Shown: piece by piece, positions 2,682 to 38,317 of the stretch
How positions within the stretch are numbered: the stretch's first letter is position 1
Layout: every line of letters begins with the position of its first letter
Source: a virus
Reading direction: 5' to 3' (one strand)
Virus record (IMG/VR): IMGVR_UViG_3300021356_000031
Location: 1-50,429 of that record
DNA: 50,429 nt
Translations under genes and position numbers: made by a program
The notes under the pieces: generated by a model
Databases searched by the model: none
Seen by the model: the letters and a program-made list of their open reading frames with translations, nothing else
Told to the model about the DNA's origin: nothing

Positions 2682-2710
2682 TTGACAACCTTCAAAAAAT
2701 ATGCTATAAT
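2682..2710 (+). promoter_or_regulatory. Perfect consensus sigma70 promoter (late)
   Basis: TTGACA at 2682-2687, a 17-bp spacer and TATAAT at 2705-2710. Transcription should start near 2717, right at the AAGGAG ribosome site (2715-2720) of the 52-aa gene. It would drive the internal virion and lysis block to 18888. Confidence 0.85.
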
Positions 2711-18685: not shown

Positions 18686-18888
18686 GCCCTGTATCTCCTG
18701 TATCTAACATGCTGTTAAGCAGCTACGTAGATACCCAAACAAAACATAATGTTGTTACTGATACTACTAATGGTACTAGTAGAATTGACACTACTGTATT
18801 TAGGACTGTGTATTATCAATATGATCACGGGACGATAAGTGTAAAAAATGTTAGCTCATCTTCTCAAAATTTAAATTTATTAGTTTAA
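18679..18888 (+). CDS. Short unknown protein at the end of the late arm (69 aa)
   Basis: I use the ATG at 18679 (MVGPVSPVSNMLLSSYVDTQ), which overlaps the previous stop, rather than an upstream TTG at 18661. The product is Ser/Thr/Val-rich with a VYYQYDHGTISVKN core and looks beta-structured. It is the last rightward gene. Its 3' end overlaps the 3' end of the leftward gene at 18851 by 38 bases. Confidence 0.5.
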   Translation: MVGPVSPVSNMLLSSYVDTQTKHNVVTDTTNGTSRIDTTVFRTVYYQYDHGTISVKNVSSSSQNLNLLV

Positions 18889-19036
18889 GACGTAACCATA
18901 AAGTAAAAAATAATATTATTAGCATTGGCTGTACCGCTACAAATATAATTAAATTAGATAGTTTATATCCCCATCCTGTTATTTCTCCAATAACTATTAA
19001 TATATTAACACAGATATTAAATAAATAATCTATCAT
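18851..19036 (-). CDS. Small two-helix membrane protein (61 aa)
   Basis: The last gene of the leftward arm, coupled to the upstream gene by an ATGA overlap. Two hydrophobic segments (about 5-20, and LIIFVAVQPMLIILFFTLWL at about 28-47) precede a charged tail. I do not recognise a family. Its 3' end overlaps the convergent late gene, so the two arms meet tail to tail. Confidence 0.5.
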   Translation of the reverse strand: MIDYLFNICVNILIVIGEITGWGYKLSNLIIFVAVQPMLIILFFTLWLRLKLINLNFEKMS

Positions 19037-24445: not shown

Positions 24446-25332
24446 ATAGATACTTCCTCTACTCTAGGTGGCGAAACAACCTTAGTCAAATAGGTAAGAC
24501 CTTTAGAGTATTTAAATACTCGAAGCCCATGACCATTATTGCTATCCGACCAACAATCATATTTATGGGGACAAAAGACGCATTGCCTGCTTAGTTTTTC
24601 ATTCCCTTTTGCGCCTTCAGGTATAGGATTATAACACTTCTCAGGCGGCGTGTCAAGTTTAATAGCTTTCTTTACATTTTTTATTTGACTTTTAATAGTG
24701 GGCTTGTCCATGTCATCTGGTCTAAATAAACAAAGCTCACCATTTTCTTTGTTTATCACAAGAAAGCCGCCAGCATTTGTGCCCTCATGAGCTTCATATC
24801 CAGTGAGTTGAGACAGGTATCCGAAGTCATCCTGTTCTGCTAAAGTTCCCTCTGCAAACTTTTTAAATGCAAAACCTGAAGCAGTTTTTATGTCAACAAC
24901 CTCGCCATCTATTTTGCAGTCCATGTGTCCCGTGATCCCCTCAACAACTACTTCTTTTTGTTCATCTGTTACAGTGTGCCCAGATAGCTTTACTAAAATA
25001 AGTAGTAGTTCTTCTAAGATATGACCGTATAAAAACTTTATTTGAGTAGAGGCAGAGTGAGTCCCTGTAGCCTGCTGGCTCCTCATATCATACCACAACT
25101 GTCGCGCAGGCTTGCCCACGTTACTCATACGGAGGCCCTTAGTTTGCTTTTTTGGTGTGGCCCAGTGAGCCAAAGCAGACTTCATCCTTTCGCCAAAATC
25201 ATAAATTAAATCATCTGATAATTTAATATCTTTGCCTTCAGACAAAACATTTATTGCAGAATAAATATCTTCGATCAAAGTATCTAAGTTTTTAGAAGAG
25301 TTCAAGTTGCACCCCATTAGAAAATAATTCAT
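24442..25332 (-). CDS. PD-(D/E)XK (RecB/Cas4-like) exonuclease with Cys cluster (296 aa)
   Basis: RecB-family nuclease motifs: Glu107/108 (YGHILEELL), Asp138 (GITGHMDCKI), Asp147-Ile-Lys149 (GEVVDIKTAS) and the QxxxY motif at Gln175-Tyr179 (LSQLTGY). Cys233, 251, 254 and 260 (QCVFCPHKYDCW) form a cluster like the Fe-S site of Cas4/AddB nucleases. It probably acts as the phage exonuclease for recombination or host DNA degradation. The start is uncertain: 25332 or ATG 25317, both overlapping the GIY-YIG gene. A perfect consensus promoter lies inside its coding sequence. Confidence 0.8.
   Translation of the reverse strand: MNYFLMGCNLNSSKNLDTLIEDIYSAINVLSEGKDIKLSDDLIYDFGERMKSALAHWATPKKQTKGLRMSNVGKPARQLWYDMRSQQATGTHSASTQIKFLYGHILEELLLILVKLSGHTVTDEQKEVVVEGITGHMDCKIDGEVVDIKTASGFAFKKFAEGTLAEQDDFGYLSQLTGYEAHEGTNAGGFLVINKENGELCLFRPDDMDKPTIKSQIKNVKKAIKLDTPPEKCYNPIPEGAKGNEKLSRQCVFCPHKYDCWSDSNNGHGLRVFKYSKGLTYLTKVVSPPRVEEVSI
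24628..24656 (-). promoter_or_regulatory. Perfect consensus sigma70 promoter inside the nuclease gene
   Basis: Read on the minus strand: TTGACA (24656-24651), 17-bp spacer, TATAAT (24633-24628). It lies in codons for KLDTPPEKCYNP of the nuclease and points to the endonuclease I, DUF3310 and nrd genes, so it could boost nucleotide-metabolism expression. Confidence 0.7.
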
Positions 25333-29911: not shown

Positions 29912-29940
29912 ATTATACGGACTAAAGACAACCATGTCAA
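29912..29940 (-). promoter_or_regulatory. Perfect consensus sigma70 promoter upstream of SSB
   Basis: Minus strand: TTGACA (29940-29935), 17-bp spacer, TATAAT (29917-29912). Predicted start near 29905 gives a leader of about 28 nt before the SSB ATG. It should drive SSB, then primase-helicase and polymerase past the terminator. Confidence 0.88.
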
Positions 29941-34885: not shown

Positions 34886-35260
34886 TTAGATCATTCCAAG
34901 GTCAGCAGCGGTAGCGATTCGAGGGGCCGAAGAAGTTTTAAAGTTCTTGGACTGCTTTGGATTGGCAGTAATTTTAACTTCTTTGTTAGACTTTAAGTCT
35001 TCAGTCTTCAGAACTTTAACATACTTGGCAGCAGCCGAAGTCTTACCGTTGATTTTCTTGACGGAGAATAATTTATTTATGTCCCCAGCCAAAGGCTGAC
35101 CATCGTGAACGGCCTTGATCGTCGCACCAAAGCGAGCCGTGAGTTTAGCAAACTCAAATCGCTTGATGTCATTTTCACCAATATATTTGTAAGCCAAAGT
35201 CTTGGCACAAGCATATACAGCTTTATCAGTAGCAGGTTTAGTCAAATCGTATTTAGCCAT
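34886..35260 (-). CDS. First early gene, basic unknown protein (124 aa)
   Basis: First gene of the leftward arm. GGGA lies upstream of its ATG, and a leader of about 0.7 kb separates it from the promoter. Basic protein with a helical N-terminus (KAVYACAKTLAYKYIGENDI, FEFAKLTARFGATIKAVHDG) and a Lys/Ser/Thr-rich tail. No family recognised. The charge and first position suit a nucleic-acid-binding early regulator, and it is the natural candidate to bind the leader hairpins; that is inference. A terminator follows directly. Confidence 0.65.
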   Translation of the reverse strand: MAKYDLTKPATDKAVYACAKTLAYKYIGENDIKRFEFAKLTARFGATIKAVHDGQPLAGDINKLFSVKKINGKTSAAAKYVKVLKTEDLKSNKEVKITANPKQSKNFKTSSAPRIATAADLGMI

Positions 35261-35312: not shown

Positions 35313-35383
35313 AGTTTTGACTATCTATAAAATTTAAAGAAGTCGTAAGACTTCTTCTTTAAATTTTATAGATAGTCAAAACT
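35313..35383 (-). promoter_or_regulatory. Bulged hairpin, family copy C (first early gene leader)
   Basis: Minus strand tip AAGTC-TTAC-GACTT with a 3-nt AAG bulge on the 5' side and a long AT-rich lower stem that pairs throughout. Same architecture as copies A and B with a partly changed tip (GGTC to AGTC, compensated on the other arm). Confidence 0.8.
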
Positions 35384-35716
35384 TCTCAGCTAGTCCCTTC
35401 AAAACCTTAAAAGGTTTTGAAGGGACTAGCTGGATCGTAAAAGACCCTTTGGGTCTTTTAAATTTGGGAGTCCTTAGCTCCTCTTAGGAGGAGCTAGATG
35501 GCTGTGAAGACTTGCCAGCTAATTAGTTTTCAAATTCTTGAAAACTAAGAAAAACTTTGAAGTTTAAAGTAAACTTCAAAGACTAAAAAGACTTCTGTTT
35601 ACTTTGTAAACTAGAAGTCTTCAAAGTTTTCTGGAGGTCAAACCTCTAAAGTCTTCTTAGACTTTAGAGTTTTGGGAGGTCGCACTTAAAAGTCTTCAAA
35701 GACTTTTAAGAATGCG
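35313..35716. repeat. Dense array of nine distinct inverted repeats
   Basis: Successive hairpins, with arm length in bp: 35313-35383 (32, 3-nt bulge), 35387-35432 (22), 35438-35460 (10), 35475-35496 (9), 35523-35548 (11), 35555-35581 (12), 35588-35621 (15, one bulge), 35644-35669 (11) and 35681-35716 (16, 2-nt bulge). Loops are 2-5 nt. About three quarters of the 404 bases are paired. Stem sequences differ, though AAGTCTT/AAGACTT recurs. Confidence 0.92.
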
Positions 35717-35830
35717 CGGGAAGGTTAGATAGTATCTGTAGTTTTTCTTAGATCTTTAGAGGGCTGGGCAGGTGGCCACACCCCCCACCTACTATATATA
35801 CTAATTCGTATACATTTTAAGCAAAAAGGA

Positions 35831-35922
35831 GTGTCAACCAGTTTAGGCGGGTCTTTAAAGTCCTAACTGTACCCCATATGAGCCAAAAGTTGTGTTTACC
35901 AGTTTGGGCGGGTCTTCAAAGT
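35831..35922. repeat. 31-bp imperfect direct repeat (2 copies, 61-bp period)
   Basis: 35831-35861 and 35892-35922 match at 27 of 31 bases, sharing ACCAGTTT, GGCGGGTCTT and AAAGT. They lie just inside the predicted leftward transcript. They could be operator or replication iterons, or RNA elements in the leader. Confidence 0.75.
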
Positions 35923-35972
35923 ACTTTAAAGTGGGAGGTATATATAGATATAGCCCCGGTGGGTCTATGAAT

Positions 35973-36001
35973 ATTATAGAGATTATTTTACGATTTGTCA
36001 A
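35973..36001 (-). promoter_or_regulatory. Perfect consensus sigma70 promoter, leftward early
   Basis: Minus strand: TTGACA (36001-35996), 17-bp spacer, TATAAT (35978-35973). Predicted start near 35966. It drives the leader RNA and the whole early arm. Confidence 0.88.
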
Positions 36002-36019
36002 GAAAAAACTTGACAAATC
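35992..36019. promoter_or_regulatory. 11-bp dyad spanning both -35 boxes
   Basis: GATTTGTCAAG (35992-36002), six A residues, CTTGACAAATC (36009-36019). Each arm holds the -35 box of one of two divergent promoters, so a protein bound here would affect both. Confidence 0.85.
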
Positions 36020-36038
36020 TGTAAACTACCTATATAAT
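36010..36038 (+). promoter_or_regulatory. Perfect consensus sigma70 promoter, rightward
   Basis: TTGACA (36010-36015), 17-bp spacer, TATAAT (36033-36038). Only 6 bases separate the -10 box from the terS ATG at 36045, so transcripts should start at or next to the start codon. Confidence 0.88.
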
Positions 36039-36044
36039 AAGAGC

Positions 36045-36428
36045 ATGAAAAAAGAATTGACAACAAAACAACAGTCCTTTTTAAACAACTTGGTTGAAAC
36101 AGGAGGTGATCCTAGACTAGCAGCCGAACTAGCTGGCTATGCTCCTAATACTCATTGGCAAGTTACAAAAGCTTTAAAGAATGAGATTATTGATATGGCC
36201 TCTAATATTTTGGCTCAATCTGCACCCAAAGCTGCCATGAAGCTTGTGCAAGTTATGGAATCTGATTCGCCTACACCGCAAGCTAATGTAAAGCTTCAAG
36301 CGGCACAGACTATCTTAGATAGGATAGGTTTAGGTAAAGCAGATAAATTAGATGTGAACCACAAAGTTGAAGGAGGTATTTTTTTACTACCCGCTAAAGA
36401 AGAGGTAGTAATAGATGTTAAGGCGTAG
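36045..36428 (+). CDS. terS: Terminase small subunit (127 aa), probably leaderless
   Basis: The frame is open back to 35892, but the promoter lies inside that extension, so I start at ATG 36045 (MKKELTTKQQSFLNNLVETG). An N-terminal helix-turn-helix region with TTKQQSFLNNL and GDPRLAAELAGY is typical of phage small terminases (DNA recognition at the pac or cos site). A helical oligomerisation part and a C-terminal beta segment (VEGGIFLLPAKEEVVIDV) follow. TerL lies two genes downstream. Confidence 0.8.
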   Translation: MKKELTTKQQSFLNNLVETGGDPRLAAELAGYAPNTHWQVTKALKNEIIDMASNILAQSAPKAAMKLVQVMESDSPTPQANVKLQAAQTILDRIGLGKADKLDVNHKVEGGIFLLPAKEEVVIDVKA

Positions 36429-36639
36429 ATCTAGTTCTACAATACCTTTTGGATATATACTTTCTGAAGATCCTAAGTTTCTAGAAGAAGTTCCAGAAGA
36501 GTTAGAAGCTCTAGAAAAAGTAAAACCTTTAATAAAAGATAAGACTCTTAGCCTTCGTGAAGGAGCTATGTGGCTAGAACACACTACGGGACGTAGCTTG
36601 AGTCATACAGGATTAAAAAAGATAGTTAATAATGGATGA
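36415..36639 (+). CDS. Small conserved protein between terS and terL (74 aa)
   Basis: ATG at 36415 inside the terS end. Pattern IPFGYILSEDPKFLEEVPEE, LEALEK, then LSLREGAMWLEHTTGRSLSH and GLKKIV. The C-terminal part looks like a helix-turn-helix similar to resolvase tail domains. I have seen this gene beside terminases in marine phages, with no known function. It overlaps terL by 8 bases and may be a packaging regulator. Confidence 0.7.
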   Translation: MLRRRSSSTIPFGYILSEDPKFLEEVPEELEALEKVKPLIKDKTLSLREGAMWLEHTTGRSLSHTGLKKIVNNG

Positions 36640-38317
36640 TTGGGAAATAAATCCAGACAGTTACCAAAAAGATTCTAATGGTAATTTTATTTTAAAAATA
36701 GATGGGACACCTAAAAAGAAGGGTGGTAGAACGAAAGGTTCTAAATCTAGAGGGTATAACTACAGCAGGGCTACCCAAAATAAGATAGCAGCGCGGAAAG
36801 CAGTAAGAGCTAAAGAAAAACTTATTGCAAAAGCAGAAGCAAAAATAAAAAATCAAAAGACTTCTTTAAAAACTTCTAAAGCTGCATTAGCTAAAATAGA
36901 AAACAAAGAAAAATCATCAGAAGGTAAGATTTTAACAGCAGATGCTGTCGAAGATCTACCAAAAAAAGTAAAAGAAGAAGCTTTAGAAAATGTTATCTTC
37001 AGACCGAATGATGGGCCGCAGACAGACTTTTTAGCGGCTCCTGAAACGGATGTACTGTATGGCGGCGCAGCAGGGGGTGGTAAGTCCTATGCTATGCTCG
37101 TAGATCCCCTGAGATTCGCTCATAGGGCTGCTCACAGGGCGTTAATACTAAGACGCTCAATGCCTGAACTCAGGGAACTTATAGATAAGTCTAGGGAGTT
37201 ATATCCGAAGGCTTTTCCGGGGTGTAAGTTCAGAGAAGTTGAAAAGATCTGGACATTCCCCAGCGGAGCTAAACTAGAGTTTGGCTTCCTTGAAAGAGAT
37301 GCAGATGTGTACCGCTATCAAGGACAAGCTTATAGTTGGATTGGTTTTGATGAGATTACTCACCTATCAACAGAGTTTTCTTGGAACTACCTAGCATCCC
37401 GACTACGTACTACAGACCCTGAGATTACGCCGTACATGCGTTGTACAGCTAACCCCGGTGGTGCTGGTGCAACATGGGTAAAGAAGCGTTATGTGAATCC
37501 ATCAGAGCCTAATGAGAGCTTCACAGGTCACGATGGATTGACACGACGTTTTATACCAGCCCGTCTAGAAGATAACCCGTATCTTGCAAAAGATGGCAGA
37601 TACGAACAGATGTTAAATGCTTTGCCAGATGTACAGCGTAAGCAACTTCTAGAAGGTAACTGGGACATTACAGAAGGTGCTGCCTTTACAGAGTTTGATG
37701 TAATGGAGCATGTTATAACACCATTTGAAATCCCAGTAGGTTGGGAAAGGGTGAAAGGAATTGACTACGGATACGCTTCTGAATCTGCTTGTGTTTGGGG
37801 TGCTGTTGATCCCAGCGATGGCACATTAATAATTTACAGAGAATTATATCGTAAAGGATTAACAGGCGTCGATTTAGCTCAGTTAATTACTAACATGGAG
37901 CTACAAGATCCTTTTTCAGTTGCTGGTGTCCTTGACACCGCAGCTTGGAACAGAACAGGCACAACAGGCCCTACAGTTGGAGAGACACTTCAGCGAGCAG
38001 GGCATAAGTTACGAAGAGCAGATAAAAATAGAATACAAGGTAAGATACAAATCCACGAATACTTGCGAGTACAGCCTAGTGGCAGACCAAAGCTACAAAT
38101 ATTTAATAGCTGCCCAAACCTAATACGTGAACTCCAAAGTATTCCTCTGGATAAATCTAACCCAGAAGATGTAAATACACATGCGCCTGACCACGCTTAC
38201 GATGCGTTAAGGTATCTTATTATGTCAAGACCTAGAGTTAATGACATATTTAGTCAGTTCAGGAATCTAAGAACACAGCAGGCTTACACACCCGTTGATG
38301 CAGAGTTTGGATATTAA
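36632..38317 (+). CDS. terL: Terminase large subunit (561 aa)
   Basis: The ATPase domain has Walker A GGAAGGGKS (144-152, Lys151), Walker B WIGFDEITHL (Asp240, Glu241) and the coupling segment TANPGGAGATWV. The nuclease domain has GIDYGYASES, GVLDTAAWNRT and DHAYDALRYL, supplying the acidic metal ligands. An unusual basic N-terminal extension (about 25-95, rich in Lys and Ala) precedes the usual start and may bind DNA. It packages DNA through the portal encoded downstream. Confidence 0.95.
   Translation: MDDWEINPDSYQKDSNGNFILKIDGTPKKKGGRTKGSKSRGYNYSRATQNKIAARKAVRAKEKLIAKAEAKIKNQKTSLKTSKAALAKIENKEKSSEGKILTADAVEDLPKKVKEEALENVIFRPNDGPQTDFLAAPETDVLYGGAAGGGKSYAMLVDPLRFAHRAAHRALILRRSMPELRELIDKSRELYPKAFPGCKFREVEKIWTFPSGAKLEFGFLERDADVYRYQGQAYSWIGFDEITHLSTEFSWNYLASRLRTTDPEITPYMRCTANPGGAGATWVKKRYVNPSEPNESFTGHDGLTRRFIPARLEDNPYLAKDGRYEQMLNALPDVQRKQLLEGNWDITEGAAFTEFDVMEHVITPFEIPVGWERVKGIDYGYASESACVWGAVDPSDGTLIIYRELYRKGLTGVDLAQLITNMELQDPFSVAGVLDTAAWNRTGTTGPTVGETLQRAGHKLRRADKNRIQGKIQIHEYLRVQPSGRPKLQIFNSCPNLIRELQSIPLDKSNPEDVNTHAPDHAYDALRYLIMSRPRVNDIFSQFRNLRTQQAYTPVDAEFGY

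Follow-up and report, generated by a model that had tools for sequence, protein, structure and literature searches.

The window analysed here, 50,429 bases long, is an entire virus record of IMG/VR, and its genes lie in two arms that are read in opposite directions. The leftward arm carries genes for SSB, a primase-helicase, a PolA-type DNA polymerase, nucleases and ribonucleotide reductase (RNR); the rightward arm carries those for the terminase small and large subunits (TerS and TerL), portal/adaptor, capsid and tail, together with the lysis genes if the two ends of the linear contig are connected. An earlier note on this DNA had taken leftward transcription as early and rightward transcription as that of late packaging, and the genes do fall into a leftward replication set and a rightward packaging and structural set. 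The gene strand switches at a pair of promoters, here termed PL (leftward) and PR (rightward), which together with the neighbouring genes are arranged as follows.

34886 to 35260, minus strand: first leftward ORF, 124 aa, ~700 nt past the predicted PL start
35973 to 35978, minus strand: PL -10 box, TATAAT, exact, with a 17-nt spacer; nearly all relatives have TATAAT or TATACT
35992 to 36019, either strand: dyad with perfect 11-bp arms and an A6 centre, spanning both -35 boxes; unconserved beyond the hexamers
35996 to 36001, minus strand: PL -35 box, TTGACA, exact; TTGACA in 39/39 non-redundant relatives
36002 to 36009, either strand: GAAAAAAC, between the -35 boxes; its counterpart in relatives is 7-49 bp long and 76% A+T
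36010 to 36015, plus strand: PR -35 box, TTGACA, exact; TTGACA in 38/39 non-redundant relatives
36033 to 36038, plus strand: PR -10 box, TATAAT, exact, with a 17-nt spacer
36045 to 36428, plus strand: terminase small subunit gene (terS); PHROG 2538, E=6e-6
36632 to 38317, plus strand: terminase large subunit gene (TerL); 66% identity to HTVC115P TerL

The TerL and capsid proteins of the window are nearest to those of the Pelagibacter phages HTVC115P, 103P and 104P, at ~66% and 51-61% identity respectively (61% for the capsid of HTVC115P), and the primase-helicase, polymerase and RNR are present as they are in HTVC115P. The complete genome of HTVC115P likewise has two arms, gp01-34 and gp35-81, which are read in opposite directions and part at terS. 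Judged by its TerL, capsid and replication genes, the contig is related to the HTVC103P-type pelagiphages and the related unclassified contigs of group IV (PMC8528129). The G+C content of this environmental contig, ~40%, exceeds the 30.8-34% that is quoted for contigs of the HTVC103P type and falls inside the 31.9-44.4% quoted for group IV. The virus is probably a lytic marine podovirus. The two arms converge at 18888-19033, where the cumulative GC skew has its maximum and where a search for inverted repeats gave none.

Searches of the window for HTH_3 repressor, integrase and sigma-70 region 4 domains found none, with search controls that were positive, so that the absence of a repressor gene claimed in the earlier note holds for HTH_3 and integrase matches. 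The small ORFs of the leftward arm gave no match to a regulator, and there remain among them ORFs to which no function is assigned. The first leftward ORF gave no convincing Pfam or PHROG match; it was also considered as a regulator in its own right, and its AlphaFold model, helical and of low confidence (pLDDT 55), was too weak to judge. A search for single-subunit RNA polymerase (PF00940) matched nothing in the window, but its control search matched nowhere either; PHROG scans of the large ORFs returned functions other than phage RNA polymerase, or none.

The divergent promoter pair

PL (36001 to 35973) and PR (36010 to 36038) each match TTGACA-17-TATAAT at 12 of 12 positions, and the two -35 hexamers are separated by 8 bases within the dyad GATTTGTCAAG-AAAAAA-CTTGACAAATC. 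The locus is thus a divergent sigma-70 promoter pair, two close consensus promoters facing in opposite directions, and both the exact back-to-back promoters and the 11-bp dyad about six A residues are as first described. The dyad has no second copy in the window, even when 3 mismatches are allowed; however, since 6 of the 11 bp in each arm are simply the facing -35 boxes, its independent part amounts to 5 bp per arm. The predicted start sites of PL and PR lie 79 bp apart, and we infer that the GAAAAAAC region is a shared spacer resembling an upstream element.

Promoter-like strings may arise in A+T-rich DNA by chance or as an artefact of annotation, and looser matches do behave in this way, those of at least 9/12 numbering 44 in total between 31 and 50 kb against 46.5 in shuffles. 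The exact promoters do not: the window holds five (beginning at 2682+, 24656-, 29940-, 36001- and 36010+) where dinucleotide frequencies predict 0.016, and two exact promoters diverging across a gap of 0-50 are expected 6e-8 times in it. The pair is not due to chance, and as an explanation of the locus chance has a negligible probability, being refuted by the conservation of the pair across the family that is set out below. The three further exact promoters lie inside the arms, at 2682-2710 (+), 29912-29940 (-) and 24628-24656 (-), one of them within the exonuclease gene.

On the rightward side the ATG of terS in the window is 7 bases past the final base of the PR -10 box, and in 59/133 unique loci it is 6-8 nt past it. 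As the usual distance from the -10 box to the start of transcription is 7 bp (PMC12825309), this position suggests that the terS mRNA is probably leaderless. Along with the 5' hairpin described below, it indirectly favours transcription from both promoters.

Conservation of the pair and erosion of the dyad

Searches with TerL and TerS gave ~240 loci with TerS, from which 167 remained after those picked by promoter pattern were omitted. A back-to-back pair scoring at least 10/12 on each side and lying within 250 bp of terS was found upstream of terS in 158 of the 167. The isolates HTVC103P, HTVC104P, HTVC115P and HTVC033P all have the pair, the last of these being counted among the nine that fail only as its pair is slightly outside the 250-bp search window. 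Among the others that fail, one has a perfect pair ~600 bp off (L331), one has short upstream sequence (L039), L326-L329 have divergent promoters that overlap outright, and the pair is absent from the distant HMO-2011 and CRP-1. The promoter pair is therefore kept across the relatives. The overlapping promoters of L326-L329, just upstream of terS, keep a 5' hairpin similar to that described below and offer a natural test of promoter exclusion.

Within 39 non-redundant relatives the -35 boxes are 7-49 bp apart and the predicted starts 78-120 bp apart. As the gap never exceeds 49 bp though 80 was allowed, selection may act on closeness itself. A helical phasing of this distance was weak (Rayleigh p ~0.04, uncorrected) and has been left unused.

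The dyad fares differently from the hexamers it contains. The earlier note had proposed looking for its conservation in relatives, and past the hexamers this is lacking: in the 21 unique relatives with an 8-bp gap the perfect arm measures 7-17 bp, and in 10 of the 21 it falls below 11 bp. As a covarying operator the dyad was rejected, since at flank positions 1-6 outside the -35 hexamers the arms match within a genome no better than between genomes. With a -35 gap that varies so widely and arms that erode even in close relatives, the dyad is not a conserved operator; it is mostly a by-product of two identical -35 boxes facing each other and of the A-rich bases that usually follow and separate them. 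Within a genome the two promoters are more alike at spacer positions 7-17 and at position 5 of the -10 box (TATAAT/TATACT) than are promoters taken from separate genomes. A common regulator or repeated copying between the arms might lie behind this, and a shared host preference would be an alternative. Long perfect arms of ~16-18 bp are found in L012, L021 and L287, and a clade-specific operator in these is conceivable.

The leftward RNA and its leader

Between PL and the first leftward ORF lies a stretch with the following features.

35950 to 35968, minus strand: AUAGACCCACCGGGGCUAU, predicted 5'-terminal stem-loop of the leftward RNA, from ~+1; conserved across the family
35820 to 35925, minus strand: two direct repeats of 45 nt, 61 nt apart, with CTTTRAAGACCCGCCYAAACTGGT; a related motif in many relatives, including distant ones
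35555 to 35581, minus strand: 12-bp hairpin followed by TTTTTCTT, resembling an intrinsic terminator, in the leftward leader
35313 to 35710, either strand: nine strong inverted repeats with stems of 9-34, within the ORF-free leader

The stem-loop is found directly after the PL -10 box in relatives down to 54% TerS identity, not clearly at every locus, and a similar hairpin is readable after the leftward -10 box in L326-L329, where the promoters are rearranged. Its mean folding energy is -6.1 against -2.7 in shuffles, and it is the strongest within the first 400 nt. Where its pairs depart from Watson-Crick, G-U outnumbers A-C on the leftward strand by 12 to 1 (p=0.003, a value that is approximate because related sequences are not fully independent), and this excess points to an RNA that reads leftward and so lends independent support to the PL start. 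A covariation test in rigid register gave no signal for the hairpin, which is attributed to its varying loop size. In a half-swap test the loss of energy was only slightly above that of other leader stretches, so the signal is mostly that of a conserved core rather than of covariation. No Rfam family reached its gathering score, and the matches at low threshold were unrelated models, mostly microRNAs and sRNAs, that fit plain hairpins.

Beyond the stem-loop, the leftward leader in the relatives inspected usually has no ORF of at least 50 aa for ~500-1100 nt, a few having short ORFs near 100-140 nt. Leaders are rich in strong hairpins, with 1.84 per 480 nt against 0.22 in a coding control, and consensus folding of 18 close relatives found two-sided changes in 27/102 pairs. 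Such compensatory changes would fit a structured leftward RNA, but the strand test is contrary: on the leftward strand A-C outnumbers G-U in the leader hairpins by 39 to 20 (p=0.018), which disfavours folding of the leftward RNA as the reason for them, and that candidate was rejected. Some loops are flipped between the near-identical leaders of L087/L283, L285/L287 and L025/L096, an event at the level of DNA that suggests either inversion mediated by the inverted repeats or template switching. Neither the leader nor the hub formed by the two promoters has a DNA match in known phage records. The 5' hairpin, the leader and the terS start codon at the predicted PR start, all missed in the earlier note, are more strongly conserved than the dyad, the hairpin and the hairpin-rich leader being the more unusual features of the locus.

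The promoter hub and its likely working

The reading that we consider probable is that of an ordinary, conserved hub of two host-type promoters placed between the arms, in which the palindrome is mainly a by-product and no dyad switch is needed. Host polymerase with its main sigma factor (RpoD, of the sigma-70 type) would fire both of these strong promoters. PL would launch the leftward replication arm with an RNA that opens with the short stem-loop and continues into the long, largely ORF-free leader, whilst PR would launch the terS-terL-structural arm with the terS start codon at or beside the start of transcription. Lying so close, the two promoters may get in each other's way and draw on the same A+T-rich DNA upstream, and no dedicated dyad-binding switch would be required. 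The activity of the promoters, their timing, their mutual hindrance and the leaderless translation of terS are here predicted from the DNA sequence.

The earlier note had instead proposed that a protein or polymerase bound to the dyad acts as a two-way switch. In the form with a dyad-binding protein, a phage or host regulator would sit on the inverted repeat with its 11-bp arms, covering the two -35 boxes, and choose the arm to be transcribed. This form would be helped by a dyad that is perfect and unique in the window, by the long arms of different sequence in L012 and L021, and by the many leftward ORFs that have no assigned function. It is not supported by the comparison of relatives, in which the gap changes, the arms past the hexamers are lost from several loci that keep the 8-bp gap, and flank positions 1-6 show no covariation; nor were HTH_3 or sigma-70 region 4 domains detected. 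We regard it as improbable. A switch without any protein is a possibility that we rate higher, albeit as less likely than not: polymerase on one promoter would exclude it from the other, and relative strength would set the ratio of early to late transcription. RNA polymerase footprints extend from -55 to -5 in early closed complexes and from -80 to +20 in advanced ones (PMC4496709), so that with start sites 79 bp apart the full footprints overlap and competition between PL and PR is plausible. The outright overlap of the promoters in L326-L329 is in keeping with exclusion, and in E. coli a bidirectional promoter that is strongly activated one way can be repressed the other way (PMC12825309). 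Against this, those E. coli promoters that were tested had too little basal activity to compete (PMC12825309), the spread of start-to-start distances means that the degree of overlap is not preserved in the family, and with both promoters at consensus nothing is seen that would tip the balance in time.

With its strong promoters next to A+T-rich DNA full of repeats and hairpins, the hub might in addition be an origin of replication, at which host transcripts would prime a T7-type replisome, a reading that is compatible with the ordinary promoter hub. It would accord with the primase-helicase and PolA-type polymerase of the leftward arm, with the TATATATA blocks, direct repeats and hairpins of the leader, with the strand test that speaks against those hairpins as leftward RNA structure, and with a cumulative GC skew that is lowest near 34-36 kb (inner contig) and highest near 19 kb. 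However, gene strand confounds the skew, neither an initiator nor a known origin motif was identified, and the flipping of inverted repeats between relatives could be purely mutational; an origin here seems rather unlikely. A broader version, in which the promoter pair, the 5' stem-loop, a leader whose array of hairpins acts at the DNA level (as an origin or packaging signal) and a leaderless terS together make up a control element common to the whole family, is put forward tentatively.

The preferred hub of two host-type promoters has parallels in known systems. The divergent sigma-70 promoters PR and PRM of phage lambda have starts ~80 bp apart where two arms meet, and interference between polymerases is expected there. 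Back-to-back phage promoters of this lambda PR/PRM kind are reportedly the subject of work by Strainic et al. in 2000. The likeness to the window lies in the divergent sigma-70 promoters, the similar spacing of starts, the meeting of two arms and the interference to be expected. The window differs from lambda in that no operators of CI/Cro type and no repressor gene were found beside the promoters and no conserved operator dyads lie over them, both promoters have the full consensus, the spacing is not fixed across relatives, and PR drives packaging and structural genes; it is not a switch of the lambda type. Bidirectional promoters of E. coli (PMC12825309) are similar in having symmetrical DNA able to fire both ways with possible competition for polymerase, but their starts are mostly 10-23 bp apart whereas those of the window are back to back at 79 bp. 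The overlapping Pc/Pr promoters of plasmid pLS20 (PMC4207663) are divergent too and act as a polymerase-based switch, but one that makes use of the Rco regulator, of looping of the DNA and of promoters that differ in strength; the window shows none of these.

A scan of IMG/VR for exact divergent TTGACA-17-TATAAT pairs with a gap of 3-33 bp gave at least 120 stretches, against a chance expectation in the scanned collection of <1 (a rough estimate). Among those listed, 74 contain no homologue of the window's TerS, TerL or portal, and the promoter arrangement therefore occurs in many other phages. One phage contig stretch in which neither terminase nor portal is homologous to the window (L172:8672-8739) carries a divergent pair that is almost wholly palindromic, spacers included. 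No description of the hub, the 5' hairpin or the leader was found in the open-licence literature; papers on RCA phages and on those of the HMO-2011 type deal with gene content, and a search of their text gave no mention of promoters, and a pelagiphage transcriptome study (PMC12753301) concerns other phage types.

A widespread group of marine podoviruses in which no sigma factor or repressor is recognisable can thus be organised round one hub of host promoters. The hub predicts exact transcription start sites, and the 5' RNA hairpin and hairpin-rich noncoding leader are open to testing in the cultured pelagiphages HTVC115P and HTVC103P.
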